NCBI GenBank assembly: GCA_031127185.1
Contig: JARIET010000077.1
Location: forward strand, 1 to 10,175
Source: Gemmatimonadota bacterium
GTDB lineage: Bacteria; Gemmatimonadota; Gemmatimonadetes; Gemmatimonadales; Gemmatimonadaceae
Direction: 5' to 3'
DNA: 10,175 nucleotides
Positions 3,269-8,722 of this stretch are shown in pieces. The translations under genes and the position numbers were made by a program. The notes below the pieces were generated by a model. That model was not told the DNA's origin. It searched no databases and saw nothing but the letters and a program-made list of their open reading frames with translations. Within the stretch, counting starts at the first letter, position 1; the number at the start of each line of letters is the position of its first letter.

Positions 3269-5251
3269 GTGAATCCCCTCGTTCTCACTTCGGTCGGTCG
3301 CGCCGTGGCAGCCCTCGACGGGCTCGGCGTTGAAGTGCGGCGCGCGCCGCTGCTACCGGCGGTGGGCACGCTCGACCCTGAGCGGCCAACAGTGATCCTG
3401 TTGGACCGGGCGCTTGCCGAAAGCGCTGGGGATGATCGGGCCGGGTTCGAACAACTGGCCAGCGTTGGTGCATTGCTCGGGATGGGCGAGCCGGGTGAGG
3501 CCGCACCGGGTCCGGCACTCCCCAGTGAGTTACTCAGCGGCTACGTGGCCGCAGACGCCCCCGTGGAGACGGTACGCGTCGCCGTGCAGGGCGCGTTGCG
3601 GCACGCCGCGACGTTGGTGGCGGCGCGCCGGTCGGCCCGCCGCGAAACTCGTAGCGCCGACGACCTGCACGAGCTCACGCGAATCGGGGTCGCGCTGTCC
3701 ACCGAGCGCGACCTGCTGACGCTGTTGGAGATGATCCTGACGCAGGCGCGGCGGTTGTCGAATGCCGACGCGGGCTCGCTCTATCTGGTGGAGCGCGACG
3801 AGGAGGGGCACCCACAGCAGCTGCGGTTCAAGTTGGCGCAAAATCATACGCTGCCCAACCTGCCGTTCAAGGAGTCGGTGATCCCCATCAACCACTCGAG
3901 CCTCGCGGGATACGTGGCCGCGACGGGTGAAGCGTTGATCATCCCTGACGTCTATCTCCTGCCCGACGACGTCAGCTACAAGATGAACCGCTCGTTCGAT
4001 GACAAGGTCGGCTATCGCACCAAATCGATGCTGGTCCTGCCGATGCGCTCACACCGGGACGAAATCACCGGCGTCGTGCAGCTGATCAACCGTAAGCGCA
4101 ACCTGGACACCGTGCTCTCGCTTCCGTCCATCGTGGACCGCGAAGTGCTCCCGTTTGATGCCCGCGCGGTTGACCTGGTCACCGCACTCGCGTCGCAGGC
4201 GGCCGTCGCCATCGAGAACGCGCGCCTGTACGAAGACATCGAACGCCTCTTTGAAGGATTTGTCACGGCTGCGGTCACCGCCATTGAATCCCGCGATCCC
4301 ACCACCAGCGGCCACTCGTCGCGCGTGGCCACGCTGACCTGCGGTCTTGCCGAAGCCGTGGATCGCGGAGGCACCGAGAACTACCGGGACGTGAAGTTCT
4401 CGCGCGAACAGATGCGCGAACTGCGCTACGCCGGCCTCCTGCACGATTTTGGCAAGGTGGGCGTGCGCGAACAGGTCCTGGTGAAGCAGAAGAAACTGTA
4501 TCCGAGCGACCTGGCGATCATCAAGCACCGCTTCCAATGGCTGTTGCAGCGCGCCGACCTCGAGTACGAACGCGAGCGTGCGGAATATCTCGTCAACTTC
4601 GGCAAGGACCGATACACGCAGGTGCTGGCCGAACTCGACGACCTGCGCCGCAGCAAGCGCGAGGAACTGCAGCGCTACCTGGACTCCATCGTGCAGGCGA
4701 ACGAACCGACCATCCTGCCTGAAGGAAAGTTCGACGAGCTTGAGGCGATCAACGCCCGGACCTTCCTCGACTTCGACGGGGTGGAAAAGCCGCTCCTCGG
4801 CGATGACGAACTGCGCTACCTGATGATCAACAAGGGGAATCTCGACCCGAAGGAGCGCCGGGAGATTGAGTCGCACGTCACACACACATTCCGGTTTCTC
4901 GAGCAGATCCCCTGGACCCGCGAGCTGAAGCAGATACCGAAGATCGCCTACGGCCACCACGAGAAACTCAATGCCAAGGGATACCCGCGTCAGGTCGGTG
5001 CCGATGCCATCCCGGTACAGACGCGGATGATGACGATCAGCGATATCTATGACGCACTGACGGCGACCGACCGGCCGTACAAGCGCGCAGTGCCCATTGA
5101 ACGCGCGATCGACATCCTGGTGGCCGAGGCCAGCGAGGGGGCGATCGACAAGTCGCTGCTCGACGCCTTTGTGGCAGCCAAGGTGTTCGACCTGGTGCAG
5201 GCCGAGTCGCCGCGACGGCGTTCCGTATCGGGGAGCGCATCGACGCTGTAG
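3269..5251 (+). CDS. GAF and HD-GYP domain signalling protein
   Basis: From GTG 3269 this is a 660-residue cytoplasmic protein. Residues 1-115 look like a degenerate receiver domain (VILLDR, D46 at the third-strand position). A GAF sensor domain spans about 132-320, and an HD-GYP domain follows. The HD-GYP landmarks are H349 (SGHSSR), the metal pair H392-D393 (LLHDFGKVG), H536 (SHVTH), HHEKLNAKGYP (563-573) and DIYDALT (592-598). HD-GYP enzymes hydrolyse cyclic-di-GMP or related dinucleotides. The catalytic set appears complete, although HHE is followed by N-A where HHExxDG is usual. About 115 charged residues are inserted between H420 and H536. The start is uncertain: a TTG at 3245 or 3173 is possible, but the latter would read through the terminator stem. 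No Shine-Dalgarno precedes GTG 3269. It is convergent with the hyuB gene, 28 bp away. Confidence 0.88.
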   Translation: MNPLVLTSVGRAVAALDGLGVEVRRAPLLPAVGTLDPERPTVILLDRALAESAGDDRAGFEQLASVGALLGMGEPGEAAPGPALPSELLSGYVAADAPVETVRVAVQGALRHAATLVAARRSARRETRSADDLHELTRIGVALSTERDLLTLLEMILTQARRLSNADAGSLYLVERDEEGHPQQLRFKLAQNHTLPNLPFKESVIPINHSSLAGYVAATGEALIIPDVYLLPDDVSYKMNRSFDDKVGYRTKSMLVLPMRSHRDEITGVVQLINRKRNLDTVLSLPSIVDREVLPFDARAVDLVTALASQAAVAIENARLYEDIERLFEGFVTAAVTAIESRDPTTSGHSSRVATLTCGLAEAVDRGGTENYRDVKFSREQMRELRYAGLLHDFGKVGVREQVLVKQKKLYPSDLAIIKHRFQWLLQRADLEYERERAEYLVNFGKDRYTQVLAELDDLRRSKREELQRYLDSIVQANEPTILPEGKFDELEAINARTFLDFDGVEKPLLGDDELRYLMINKGNLDPKERREIESHVTHTFRFLEQIPWTRELKQIPKIAYGHHEKLNAKGYPRQVGADAIPVQTRMMTISDIYDALTATDRPYKRAVPIERAIDILVAEASEGAIDKSLLDAFVAAKVFDLVQAESPRRRSVSGSASTL

Positions 5252-5279: not shown

Positions 5280-6836
5280 TCAGCGGGCCGGAGCCGCTCC
5301 CCAGCCGCCGCCGCCCGGCGTTTCGATGGTCACCACATCACCGGGCGCGAGTTCCATGCGGCACTTCGGCGGTATCGGCGTGCCATTCAGCCGATTGATT
5401 CCCATGGCCCCGTCCATTCCGCCCAGCGCACCTCGTGGCGCACGCGTGCGTCGCTCGGTCACCAGGGTCACCGTGCAGCGCTCCAGCACGCGGTAGCGGC
5501 GCAGCACCCCATCGCCGCCGGCATGGAGGCCGTTTCCTCCAGACCCGCGGCGAATGGTATACTCGGCAATCTCCATCGGGTACGAGCGCTCGAGCGATTC
5601 GATCGGCGTGTTGCGCGTGTTGCTCATGCCCACGTGCACGGCGCTCGGTCCGCGCCCCTTCGGCGAGCCGCCCTGCCCACCGCCAAGTGTCTCGTAGAAC
5701 GTCCAGCCGTCGCCGCCAAAGGTGATGTTGTTCATGGTGCCCTGCCCCTGCGCCGGCACGGCAACGCCAGCGTCGGCAAACGCCGCGAAGAGGAGGTCGG
5801 TGACACGCTGTGATGTTTCCACATTGCCGGCCGCGACCGCCGATGGCCAGCGCGCATCGAGCACACAGTTGTCTGGCGTCGCGATCGTGATGGGGCGGCC
5901 GATCCCTTCGTTCGTGGGCACGTCGTCGTCCAGCAGCGAGCGCAGCACGAAGATCGCCGCCGCACGAACAACCGCCTTCACGGTGTTCACATTGCCGCGC
6001 ACGCGTGGCGATGTACCCGCGAAGTCGAGCGACAGCGTCCCCCGACGCACGCGGAGGCGCAGCGCGAACGGCACAGGAACATCGCTGACGCCATCCCCTT
6101 CAAGAATGTCGTCTGCGCGCCCCTCGACATCGCCAATCTCGAGCAAACGCGCACGCGCCCGTCGCTCGGTGTAGGCGAGCAGCGCGTCGCAGGCGGCACG
6201 CATACGGGACGGGCCCTCGCGCGCGAGGAGCATGCGCCATCCGGCGGCGCCCGCCGCACAGGCGCCGCGCTGGGCTTCCAGGTCACCGCGGCGTTCCGCC
6301 GGTGTCCGCACGTTGGCGAGCACGAGTTCGAGCAATGCGTCGTCGAGACGGCCACGCGGAGCCAGGCGGATGGGCGGGAGATGCAGTCCCTCCTGCACCA
6401 ATTCCGTAGCACCCTGCGGCATGGAACCGGGGCTCATGCCGCCCACATCGGCGTGGTGTGCGCGCACGGCGGTGTAACCAATGATGCGCGAACCTTCGGC
6501 CACCGCCTCAACCATGGTGAGGTCCGGCAGGTGGGATCCCCCATCGTAGGGACTGTTCAACAGGAACACGTCGCCCGGCGCCGGCTTGCGAGCCATCACC
6601 GCGCGCACCGACTCCGGCATCGCGCCAAGATGCACCGGGATGTGAGCGGCCTGCGCGATCATGCGGCCGCCCGAATCGAAAATCGCCGACGACGCATCGC
6701 GGCGCTCGCGGATATTCGGTGAGAGCGACCCGCGCTCCAGCACCGTACCCATCTCCTCCGCGATCATGGCGACCGCGTTGGACATCACGGACAGACCGAG
6801 GGCGTCGAAGCCGCGGGAGCGGGTCCGCGAACTCAT
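5280..6836 (-). CDS. hyuB: Hydantoinase B / oxoprolinase subunit (HyuB family)
   Basis: A 518-residue HyuB-family protein, near the usual 510-580. It carries NSPYDGGSHLPDLTMVEAV (94-112) and RAHHADVGGMSPGSMP (125-140), whose H127, H128 and D130 are the conserved putative metal ligands. It also has GNVETSQRVTDLL, GGGQGGSPKGRGP, RSYPMEIAEYTIRRGSGG and the family-typical C-terminal PGGGGWG. With HyuA it forms enzymes that open cyclic amides such as N-methylhydantoin or 5-oxoproline in ATP-driven reactions; the substrate here is unknown. It is cytoplasmic with no signal peptide. Its ATG overlaps, as ATGA, a stop (6833-6835) in the hyuA frame, implying translational coupling. Only a weak GAG (6842-6844) serves as ribosome binding site. 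It is the last gene of the minus-strand cluster. Confidence 0.93.
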   Translation of the reverse strand: MSSRTRSRGFDALGLSVMSNAVAMIAEEMGTVLERGSLSPNIRERRDASSAIFDSGGRMIAQAAHIPVHLGAMPESVRAVMARKPAPGDVFLLNSPYDGGSHLPDLTMVEAVAEGSRIIGYTAVRAHHADVGGMSPGSMPQGATELVQEGLHLPPIRLAPRGRLDDALLELVLANVRTPAERRGDLEAQRGACAAGAAGWRMLLAREGPSRMRAACDALLAYTERRARARLLEIGDVEGRADDILEGDGVSDVPVPFALRLRVRRGTLSLDFAGTSPRVRGNVNTVKAVVRAAAIFVLRSLLDDDVPTNEGIGRPITIATPDNCVLDARWPSAVAAGNVETSQRVTDLLFAAFADAGVAVPAQGQGTMNNITFGGDGWTFYETLGGGQGGSPKGRGPSAVHVGMSNTRNTPIESLERSYPMEIAEYTIRRGSGGNGLHAGGDGVLRRYRVLERCTVTLVTERRTRAPRGALGGMDGAMGINRLNGTPIPPKCRMELAPGDVVTIETPGGGGWGAAPAR

Positions 6837-6973
6837 CGGCGCTCGAGGAGCCAGCCACCGATGGCCAGCGCGCGGGCGGTCCAGCCGCGCGCCACGACCA
6901 TTGTGGCGTCCGAAAGTGTCAGCACACTGGGCCCCTTGAGTCGCCGGGAAGTCACCCGCAGCGCCGAATCAAG
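6833..6973 (-). other. In-frame HyuA C-terminal tail beyond the TGA stop
   Basis: Directly after the hyuA TGA, the same frame stays open for 46 codons and ends in a TGA at 6833-6835 that overlaps the hyuB ATG. It reads, in part, KGPSVLTLSDATMVVARGW and then TARALAIGGWLLERR. This resembles the usual HyuA ending (GPAVIE...T..V..GW.A...G.L). Third codon positions are G or C in 36 of 46 codons, as in a coding region of this genome. I read it as the severed or read-through C-terminus of HyuA rather than a separate gene. Confidence 0.8.
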
Positions 6974-8722
6974 TCACAGTTTTCGGGCCTTGCCGATCGC
7001 GGCCGCACGAGCGGCGATGACTTCCACCGGGCGATCGAGCGTGAAGCCGTAACGCCCCACGTGCAGCGCGGCGAACCGGGCGGCTATCGTCGCGCCGGTA
7101 TCGCGTGCGGTAAACGGGACATCGAGTTCATACCCCTGCCCCGCGTAGCGGGCTCGTGCGTGGGCCGCAATGCGCGGCTTTTGCATGCGTCCTGCAGCCG
7201 CGCGGCTGAGTTGCTGAAAGAGCCCCGCAACGGCAGGCCGCTTCATCGAGAGCGCGAGTTGCATCACACTTTGCGCAGCCTCGCGGCGCTCCGGCGCGAT
7301 GGCGAGCCCGAGTGCACTGAGCACACCTGCGTGCGGCGGAACGAGGATGCGCCGCATGCCGAGCGCGTCGGCAAGGGCGCAGCCGTGGAGCGGTCCACCG
7401 CCACCGAATGCCACCAGGACGCAGGCACGCGGATCGACCCCCCGTTCCACACTCACGCGCCGGAGCGCCCGCGCCATCGATGCATCGGCGATCGCGATGA
7501 TTGCCTCGGCAGTTCTTGGTACCGCCGCACCCAGTTGCTTCGCCAGCTTCGTGATCGCCGCATGCGCAGCAGCACGATCGAGTTGTACGCCCCCCGAGAG
7601 TTCCGCCGCGTCCAGGCGTCCCAGGGCAATGTGCGCATCAGTCACGGTTGGTGCGGTACCACCGCGCCCAAACGCCACGGGGCCGGGTACGGCTCCGGCG
7701 CTATGCGGACCGACACGCAGCGCGCCGCCGTCATCCACCCAGGCGATGCTGCCCCCGCCGGCGCTGACGGTCTCGACGAGCACGCGCGGAAGTGCGATCG
7801 GCACACCGGCCACACTGCCGCCCGGCTCCACGAGCGGCTCGCCACCCAGAATCAGGCCGGCATCTGCGCTGGTGCCGCCGATATCAATGGTGAGTGCGTC
7901 GCCGAAACCCGCCGCGCGGAGCACGGCCGCCGCGCCGACCACGCCGCCGGCTGGCCCGGAGAGTGCCAGCGATGCGGCGCGACCCGCCGCCTCACGCGCC
8001 GGGAGCATGCCGCCGCCGCTCGTCATCACTTCCGGCTCTGGATAGCCGGACTCGGCCAACCGCGCGCCAAGGTGTTCGAGGTACCGACGCACGCGTGGGC
8101 GGGCATACCCCTCTGCCACGGCCGTCGCCGTGCGTTCGTACTCGCGAATCTCGGGAAGCACCGTGCTGCCGCACACCACATCCACTCCCGGCAACGCCTG
8201 AGCGATTGCCCTGGCGAGGATCGCCTCATGTGAGGCATCGGCGTAGGCGTGGAGGAGCGACAGTACGACAATGTCCGGCTGCAGTGCGGCGACGGCCTCG
8301 GCGACCCGCTCAGCTTCCATCGCGGAGAGCGGAATCAAGCGCGCGCGCGCCGAGATGCGTTCGTTGACTGCCACTACGTGCGCGGCATCAACGAGCGGCG
8401 CCGGATGATGGAGTGAGAGATCGTACAGGCCGGCGCGTTCCTGTCGGCGCAACTCCAGCAGGTCGGTGGCCCCGGCGGTTGCGCAGAGCGCGACGCGCGC
8501 GCCTTTCCGTTCGAGCAGGAGATTGGTCACCACGGTCGTGCCGTGGGCGACCCGCGACACGGAGGCCGGCGCTGCACCGAGCGCGCGCAGCGCGGTCGCG
8601 ACTCCTTCGCTCTGATCGGCGGGCGTGCTGAGGACTTTTCTCGTCGCGACGCGTCCGCTGGCGTCCACCGCGGCCAGATCGGTGTAGGTACCGCCCACGT
8701 CGACGCCGACGGAGATGGTCAC
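6974..8722 (-). CDS. hyuA: Hydantoinase A / oxoprolinase subunit (HyuA family), ends at a probably internal TGA
   Basis: A 582-residue ATP-binding subunit of the HyuA/HyuB type with an ASKHA fold. GVDVGGTYTDL (6-16) is the N-terminal phosphate loop. Other family motifs are VAHGTTVVTNLLLERKGA, LALSGPAGGVVGAA, LTIDIGGTSAD (second phosphate loop), SAGGGSIAWVDDGGALRVGP, RGGTAPTVTDAHIALGRL and VAFGGGGPLHGCALADALGM. It uses ATP to activate a cyclic amide or ketone substrate; which one cannot be told. The usual length is about 630-700 residues. The frame continues past the TGA for 46 codons with family-like sequence (6833-6973), so the natural product is probably 629 residues. GTG 8722 is preceded by GGAG with a six-base spacer and overlaps the DUF4105 stop by four bases, indicating coupled translation. 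Confidence 0.9.
   Translation of the reverse strand: MTISVGVDVGGTYTDLAAVDASGRVATRKVLSTPADQSEGVATALRALGAAPASVSRVAHGTTVVTNLLLERKGARVALCATAGATDLLELRRQERAGLYDLSLHHPAPLVDAAHVVAVNERISARARLIPLSAMEAERVAEAVAALQPDIVVLSLLHAYADASHEAILARAIAQALPGVDVVCGSTVLPEIREYERTATAVAEGYARPRVRRYLEHLGARLAESGYPEPEVMTSGGGMLPAREAAGRAASLALSGPAGGVVGAAAVLRAAGFGDALTIDIGGTSADAGLILGGEPLVEPGGSVAGVPIALPRVLVETVSAGGGSIAWVDDGGALRVGPHSAGAVPGPVAFGRGGTAPTVTDAHIALGRLDAAELSGGVQLDRAAAHAAITKLAKQLGAAVPRTAEAIIAIADASMARALRRVSVERGVDPRACVLVAFGGGGPLHGCALADALGMRRILVPPHAGVLSALGLAIAPERREAAQSVMQLALSMKRPAVAGLFQQLSRAAAGRMQKPRIAAHARARYAGQGYELDVPFTARDTGATIAARFAALHVGRYGFTLDRPVEVIAARAAAIGKARKL

Follow-up and report, generated by a model that had tools for sequence, protein, structure and literature searches.

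In-frame stop codons that are private to one draft genome, and pseudogenes of recent origin, are a known kind of gene interruption. The hyuA gene analyzed here resembles them in that the interruption is confined to one assembly and to a single codon, the gene is otherwise intact, and unrelated genes are hit as well; we saw no difference between hyuA and such cases. Bacterial selenoproteins are a second system for comparison, and hyuA is similar to them in that a TGA lies within its frame and the genome carries tRNA-Sec and selD. However, the hyuA site differs from theirs in having no Cys homologues, no redox motif and a weak SECIS match, and the string "hydant" does not occur in the main texts of PMC1088965 and PMC13188914. 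Within the HyuA, N-methylhydantoinase and 5-oxoprolinase alpha subunits (PF05378, PF01968), a TGA separates the last 46 codons from the rest of the gene only here. Based on comparison with related sequences, we suggest that this stop is private and unprogrammed in an otherwise normal gene, and that read-through and selenocysteine insertion are unlikely.

The window, i.e. the whole stretch of DNA analyzed, comprises the 10,175 nucleotides of contig JARIET010000077.1 from a Gemmatimonadota bacterium (assembly GCA_031127185.1). The relevant features are as follows.

6974–8722, minus strand: residues 1–582 of hyuA, hydantoinase/oxoprolinase subunit A, with a GTG start at 8722, assigned by Pfam domains
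6974–6976, minus strand: in-frame TGA at hyuA codon 583, seen only in this genome
6836–6973, minus strand: 46 further codons in frame, encoding a linker and the conserved beta strands of the HyuA C-terminus, assigned by homology
6942–6963, minus strand: GC-rich hairpin 3' of the TGA, with a stability no better than chance
6833–6835, minus strand: probable ancestral hyuA stop TGA, in an ATGA overlap with the hyuB ATG, judged from relatives
5280–6836, minus strand: hyuB, hydantoinase/oxoprolinase subunit B, with an unbroken frame, assigned by Pfam Hydantoinase_B

The source genome (2.22 Mb in 219 contigs, 61% complete) yielded a single HyuA match, and its closest named relatives are Gemmatimonadota metagenome assemblies. 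The hyuA body contains both domains expected of the family (Hydant_A_N, 1.9e-38; Hydantoinase_A, 8.5e-86), while hyuB matches Hydantoinase_B over profile positions 1–518 of 519 (8.5e-175). Upstream, a gene with Lnb-type Pfam domains overlaps the hyuA start by four bases. In three relatives (L039, L042 and L024), the hyuA frame is open for at least 1085 codons and has a HyuB-like end, and these genes are apparently natural hyuAB fusions.

An earlier sequence-only reading had proposed that a TGA at 6976–6974 splits hyuA, that 46 sense codons follow in the same frame before a TGA at 6835–6833, that their product resembles the HyuA terminus, and that the frame ends in an ATGA overlap with hyuB. 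All of these points are borne out. The hyuB ATG lies at 6836–6834, and its frame thus starts at the ATGA that closes the longer hyuA frame. At this composition, 46 codons without a stop are nothing unusual (P about 0.36, estimated from how often stops occur in another frame of hyuA), and we judge the tail to be real because it is homologous to the C-terminus of relatives, not because of its open length. P0001, the closest relative in the protein collection, has 629 residues and is 94% identical over 582 residues. After residue 582, P0001 continues with GPAVLTLSDATMVVARGWSARALAIGGWLLERR and the window with GPSVLTLSDATMVVARGWTARALAIGGWLLERR; over the last 31 residues (599–629) the two differ at only 2 positions. 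The C-terminal motif GPxV.TLxDATMVVAxGW is encoded in the same frame as the body, but behind the TGA, and by eye the same kind of motif ends the 120 proteins listed. The linker around codon 583 is variable, both in its sequence and in how long it is; the last 35 residues, by contrast, are conserved. Codon comparisons with four genomes of the genus follow this division: silent changes are in excess over replacing ones in the tail (12/9, 11/7, 17/8 and 16/8; body, in the same genome order, 238/121, 248/122, 256/137 and 242/150), while replacing changes are in excess in the linker (4/12, 3/13, 3/12 and 2/14). Neither the tail alone nor the read-through translation of hyuA gave a Pfam match in this region, and the intact proteins P0001, P0002 and P0006 have none there either. 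A frameshift in place of a stop is unsupported; the tail and the body share one frame that is open on both sides of the TGA. In the 15 same-genus junctions, read by eye for the end of the hyuA frame and not for the hyuB start, this frame ends in ATGA in 14 and GTGA in one. Because the tail is homologous and the frames of relatives end in ATGA or GTGA, position 6833 is very probably the ancestral end of hyuA, as had been proposed.

Among the genomes searched, only this draft genome has the stop. In the genus, HyuA is matched in all 18 genomes, in some partially, and a stop lies inside the match only in the window's own genome. In the wider family, with at most seven candidates scored per genome, 122 of 179 genomes matched HyuA. 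The survey listed 137 matches besides the window, and in the 107 of these, from 106 other genomes, that extend from residue 553 or before to residue 620 or beyond, no stop lies inside hyuA. The alignment of homologues at codon 583, for which the sequence-only reading had called, gives sense residues throughout. Arg, Lys and Glu are the commonest among the 55 aligned proteins (18, 17 and 8, followed by Thr 4, Asn 3, Ala 2, and Asp, Ser and Gln 1 each), and Cys is not among them. P0001 has Arg, and the 15 same-genus genomes have AAG, AAA, CGG, CGT, CGC, GCG, ACG, GAC or CAG, that is K, A, R, T, D or Q and in no case Cys. The gene also shows no sign of decay. Window and P0001 differ at 45 positions including the stop column; without it, outgroups place 3 of the 44 differences on the lineage of the window and 7 on that of P0001, leaving 34 unassigned (35 of the 45 when the stop column is counted). 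The assigned differences fall in the body (window 3, P0001 6) and the tail (0 and 1). Apart from this TGA, the frames of hyuA and hyuB are unbroken.

These comparisons bear on the suggestion that the UGA is read through, in a programmed or tolerated manner, so that some full-length HyuA is made and hyuB stays coupled. The intact and conserved tail, the C that follows the UGA (a context that the sequence-only reading called leaky in bacteria) and the hairpin just 3' of it would all fit this idea. However, a stop that is conserved in relatives and has coding sequence on both sides was found in none of the 107 spanning matches, residue 583 is variable, and two of the four ordinary interruptions in this assembly (see below) are TAA. 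The hairpin at 6963–6942 is indeed part of the minimum-energy fold, but it is no more stable than shuffled sequences: of 200 shuffles in each case, 115 equal or surpass its fold over 47 nt (z = 0.19) and 140 over 101 nt (z = 0.45). Programmed read-through is unsupported given a unique stop, a variable residue and an ordinary hairpin, and we consider read-through of either sort very unlikely. An alternative is that HyuA is made in two pieces, with the tail re-initiated at the GTG that is its seventh codon and assembling with the 582-residue part. The tail is open and conserved and the GTG lies near its start; against this, the site is free of stops in every spanning match from the 106 other genomes, and in the P0001 model the tail is predicted to form short strands that continue the same chain after the strand 566–576. 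We regard a two-piece HyuA as barely credible.

Because the genome carries tRNA-Sec and selD, we considered decoding of the UGA as selenocysteine. In this genome, selD is directly followed by tRNA-Sec(UCA) (L196, contig C95, 8225–9358), and of the 18 genomes of the genus, 16 have a SelB that scores above the cut-off; neither selA nor an above-cut-off SelB was found in this 61% complete genome. The limits for a bacterial SECIS element were taken from PMC13188914; in the strict form, the apical loop of the hairpin has G[G/U] and lies 16–37 nt after the UGA. The hyuA hairpin passes a lenient form of these limits (loop of 5 nt with G as its second base, 19 nt from the UGA), but 144 of the 441 ordinary terminal TGAs pass it too, as do 542 of 1500 random positions within genes. 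The hairpin fails the strict loop pattern, which 52 of the 441 terminal TGAs and 239 of the 1500 random positions meet. Two other interrupted genes of the assembly behave differently. One (L131:6440–7132, minus strand, TGA at 6794) encodes a peroxiredoxin-like protein with a UXXC motif (HW*PWC), and the other (L254:4661–5467, minus strand, TGA at 5006) a peroxiredoxin with a TXXU motif (TGG*). Each has a SECIS-like hairpin, both pass the strict pattern, and their motifs match the two families of selenocysteine peroxiredoxins described in PMC1088965, Prx with TXXU and Prx-like with UXXC. Both are likely ordinary selenoproteins, and hyuA is unlike them. With Arg, Lys or Glu at the site in relatives and a position in a linker that is not a redox site, selenocysteine in hyuA strikes us as highly improbable, even with tRNA-Sec(UCA) and selD in the genome and SelB in relatives.

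The hyuA stop is not the only interruption in this assembly. We scanned 1.33 Mb of the same genome (101 stretches including the window) for adjoining same-frame stretches that are parted by a stop and each carry a coding signal, and judged the 146 candidate pairs (43 + 103) by eye. Six pairs were taken to be one gene split by a stop: hyuA, polynucleotide phosphorylase (PNPase), the two peroxiredoxins, a quinoprotein (PQQ) dehydrogenase and a Ser/Thr kinase; for the five other than hyuA, the sequence read across the stop was checked against solved structures. One pair was judged to be two genes, and a scan showed these to be GrpE and then DnaJ; the other 139 were taken by eye to be gene ends or non-coding. 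The number of interruptions is a lower bound. PNPase is cut by a TGA (L139:5682, minus strand) at which no SECIS pattern was found; of the 11 other loci read in the genus, 9 have Cys there and 2 have Ala. A stop inside the PNPase match was also listed for genomes G007, G002 and G012, and that of G007 (L160) is the gene's own end. The PQQ dehydrogenase is cut by an in-frame TAA (L214:1306, plus strand), as is the kinase, at a Tyr position (L184:15728, plus strand). Because unrelated genes are hit, and by TAA as well as TGA, the phenomenon is neither UGA-specific nor hyuA-specific. UGA-specific recoding throughout the genome was rejected on the same two TAA interruptions and on TGA being the commonest terminal stop (418 of the 814 long ORFs that have one). 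A further reading is that UGA is tolerated at sites other than those for selenocysteine, for example through mis-decoding by tRNA-Sec(UCA) or a near-cognate tRNA, with PNPase and HyuA made at full length. If the organism did decode these UGAs, termination would be leaky in a housekeeping gene, which is unlikely; the two TAA interruptions also argue against such tolerance, unless both are errors, and we give it hardly any weight.

We suggest instead that the draft genome, which is fragmentary, may have a consensus error in this single codon, and give this reading an even chance. The organism's hyuA would then be an ordinary gene of about 629 codons that ends at 6833 and is coupled to hyuB by the ATGA overlap, with nothing programmed; we infer that the error entered during sequencing or assembly and is absent from the cell's own DNA. 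In its favor are the sense codon in P0001, at 94% identity, and in the other relatives read, the lack of a stop in all spanning family matches, the lack of decay, the 219 contigs at 61% completeness, and the interruption of PNPase, the PQQ dehydrogenase and the kinase in the same assembly. PNPase is a housekeeping RNase, and an early stop in it is easier to accept as error than as biology. If 2.7% of single-base changes make a stop, the four events in about 404,000 long-ORF codons imply that roughly one base in 8,000 is wrong or changed, again a lower bound, and such a rate is believable for a fragmentary draft consensus. On the other hand, four interruptions in 1.33 Mb would also be plausible as true recent nonsense mutations, and none of the four is TAG, although TAG is expected to account for 55% of random stop-making changes.

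In a homology control, the ORFs of 400 kb of genome G003 were compared with a sample of the window's genome (G000), and the reverse. Unfiltered, its output was flooded by shadow frames. Once only the best match per place was kept, with an identity of at least 50%, G000 retained 8 stops over 106.7 kb and G003 retained 5 over 105.6 kb. Each of these 13 stops lies towards one end of its alignment, 2 within 3 columns of it and 11 behind a fringe of 5–102 columns that is 25–57% identical, where the rest of the alignment is 68–98% identical. We read all 13 as lying outside genes, having looked at the frames for two (L133 and L221). Thus, no convincing interruption was found in about 107 kb of G000 or about 106 kb of G003 at this identity. 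The control left out hyuA, PNPase, the kinase and both peroxiredoxins, and a G003 frame does span the TAA of the PQQ dehydrogenase, but at 40% identity, below the filter. Because the control covered too little (about 107 kb), no excess of interruptions in this assembly is demonstrable from it.

The main competitor of a consensus error is that hyuA, as a dispensable catabolic gene, really acquired a nonsense mutation very recently, with HyuA probably inactive and hyuB uncoupled. A single base separates TGA from several sense codons, among them Arg codons in use here, and hyuA is not universal: with at most 13 candidates scored per genome, a match was found in 59 of 99 genomes searched, the window's own included, and in none of the other 40. 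A tail and a body without accumulated damage would be expected if the mutation is recent. By contrast, the absence of a second break in either frame and the interruption of PNPase, the loss of which is costly, argue against it, and no second genome of this species was seen, in a protein collection clustered at 90%, where seven members stand behind P0001. A true mutation is in our view a real, if tentative, possibility, and a consensus error is somewhat more likely. Thus, of the causes named by the sequence-only reading, read-through finds no support, while nonsense mutation and sequence error both still stand.

What a true stop would mean can be gauged from the model of P0001 (mean pLDDT 83.8), in which the tail contains strands at 594–596, 599–602, 607–610, 614–618 and 624–628. 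In a structural comparison, full-length relatives from the PDB align over the whole model chain, with residues 1–583 spanned by at least a fifth of the rows and the part beyond by six full-length rows and a few others; by sequence, 7hk5 aligns only as far as residue 575, and the tail is covered by the structural comparison only. If the stop is true, HyuA loses its last 46 residues with these five predicted beta strands, and hyuB loses its coupling. According to the model, a 582-residue HyuA without them would probably not fold or work normally. The case also holds a caution: a convincing in-frame TGA, with conserved coding sequence downstream, a hairpin and selenocysteine genes in the genome, may still be private to one assembly, where unrelated TAA and TGA interruptions elsewhere parallel the stop in hyuA.
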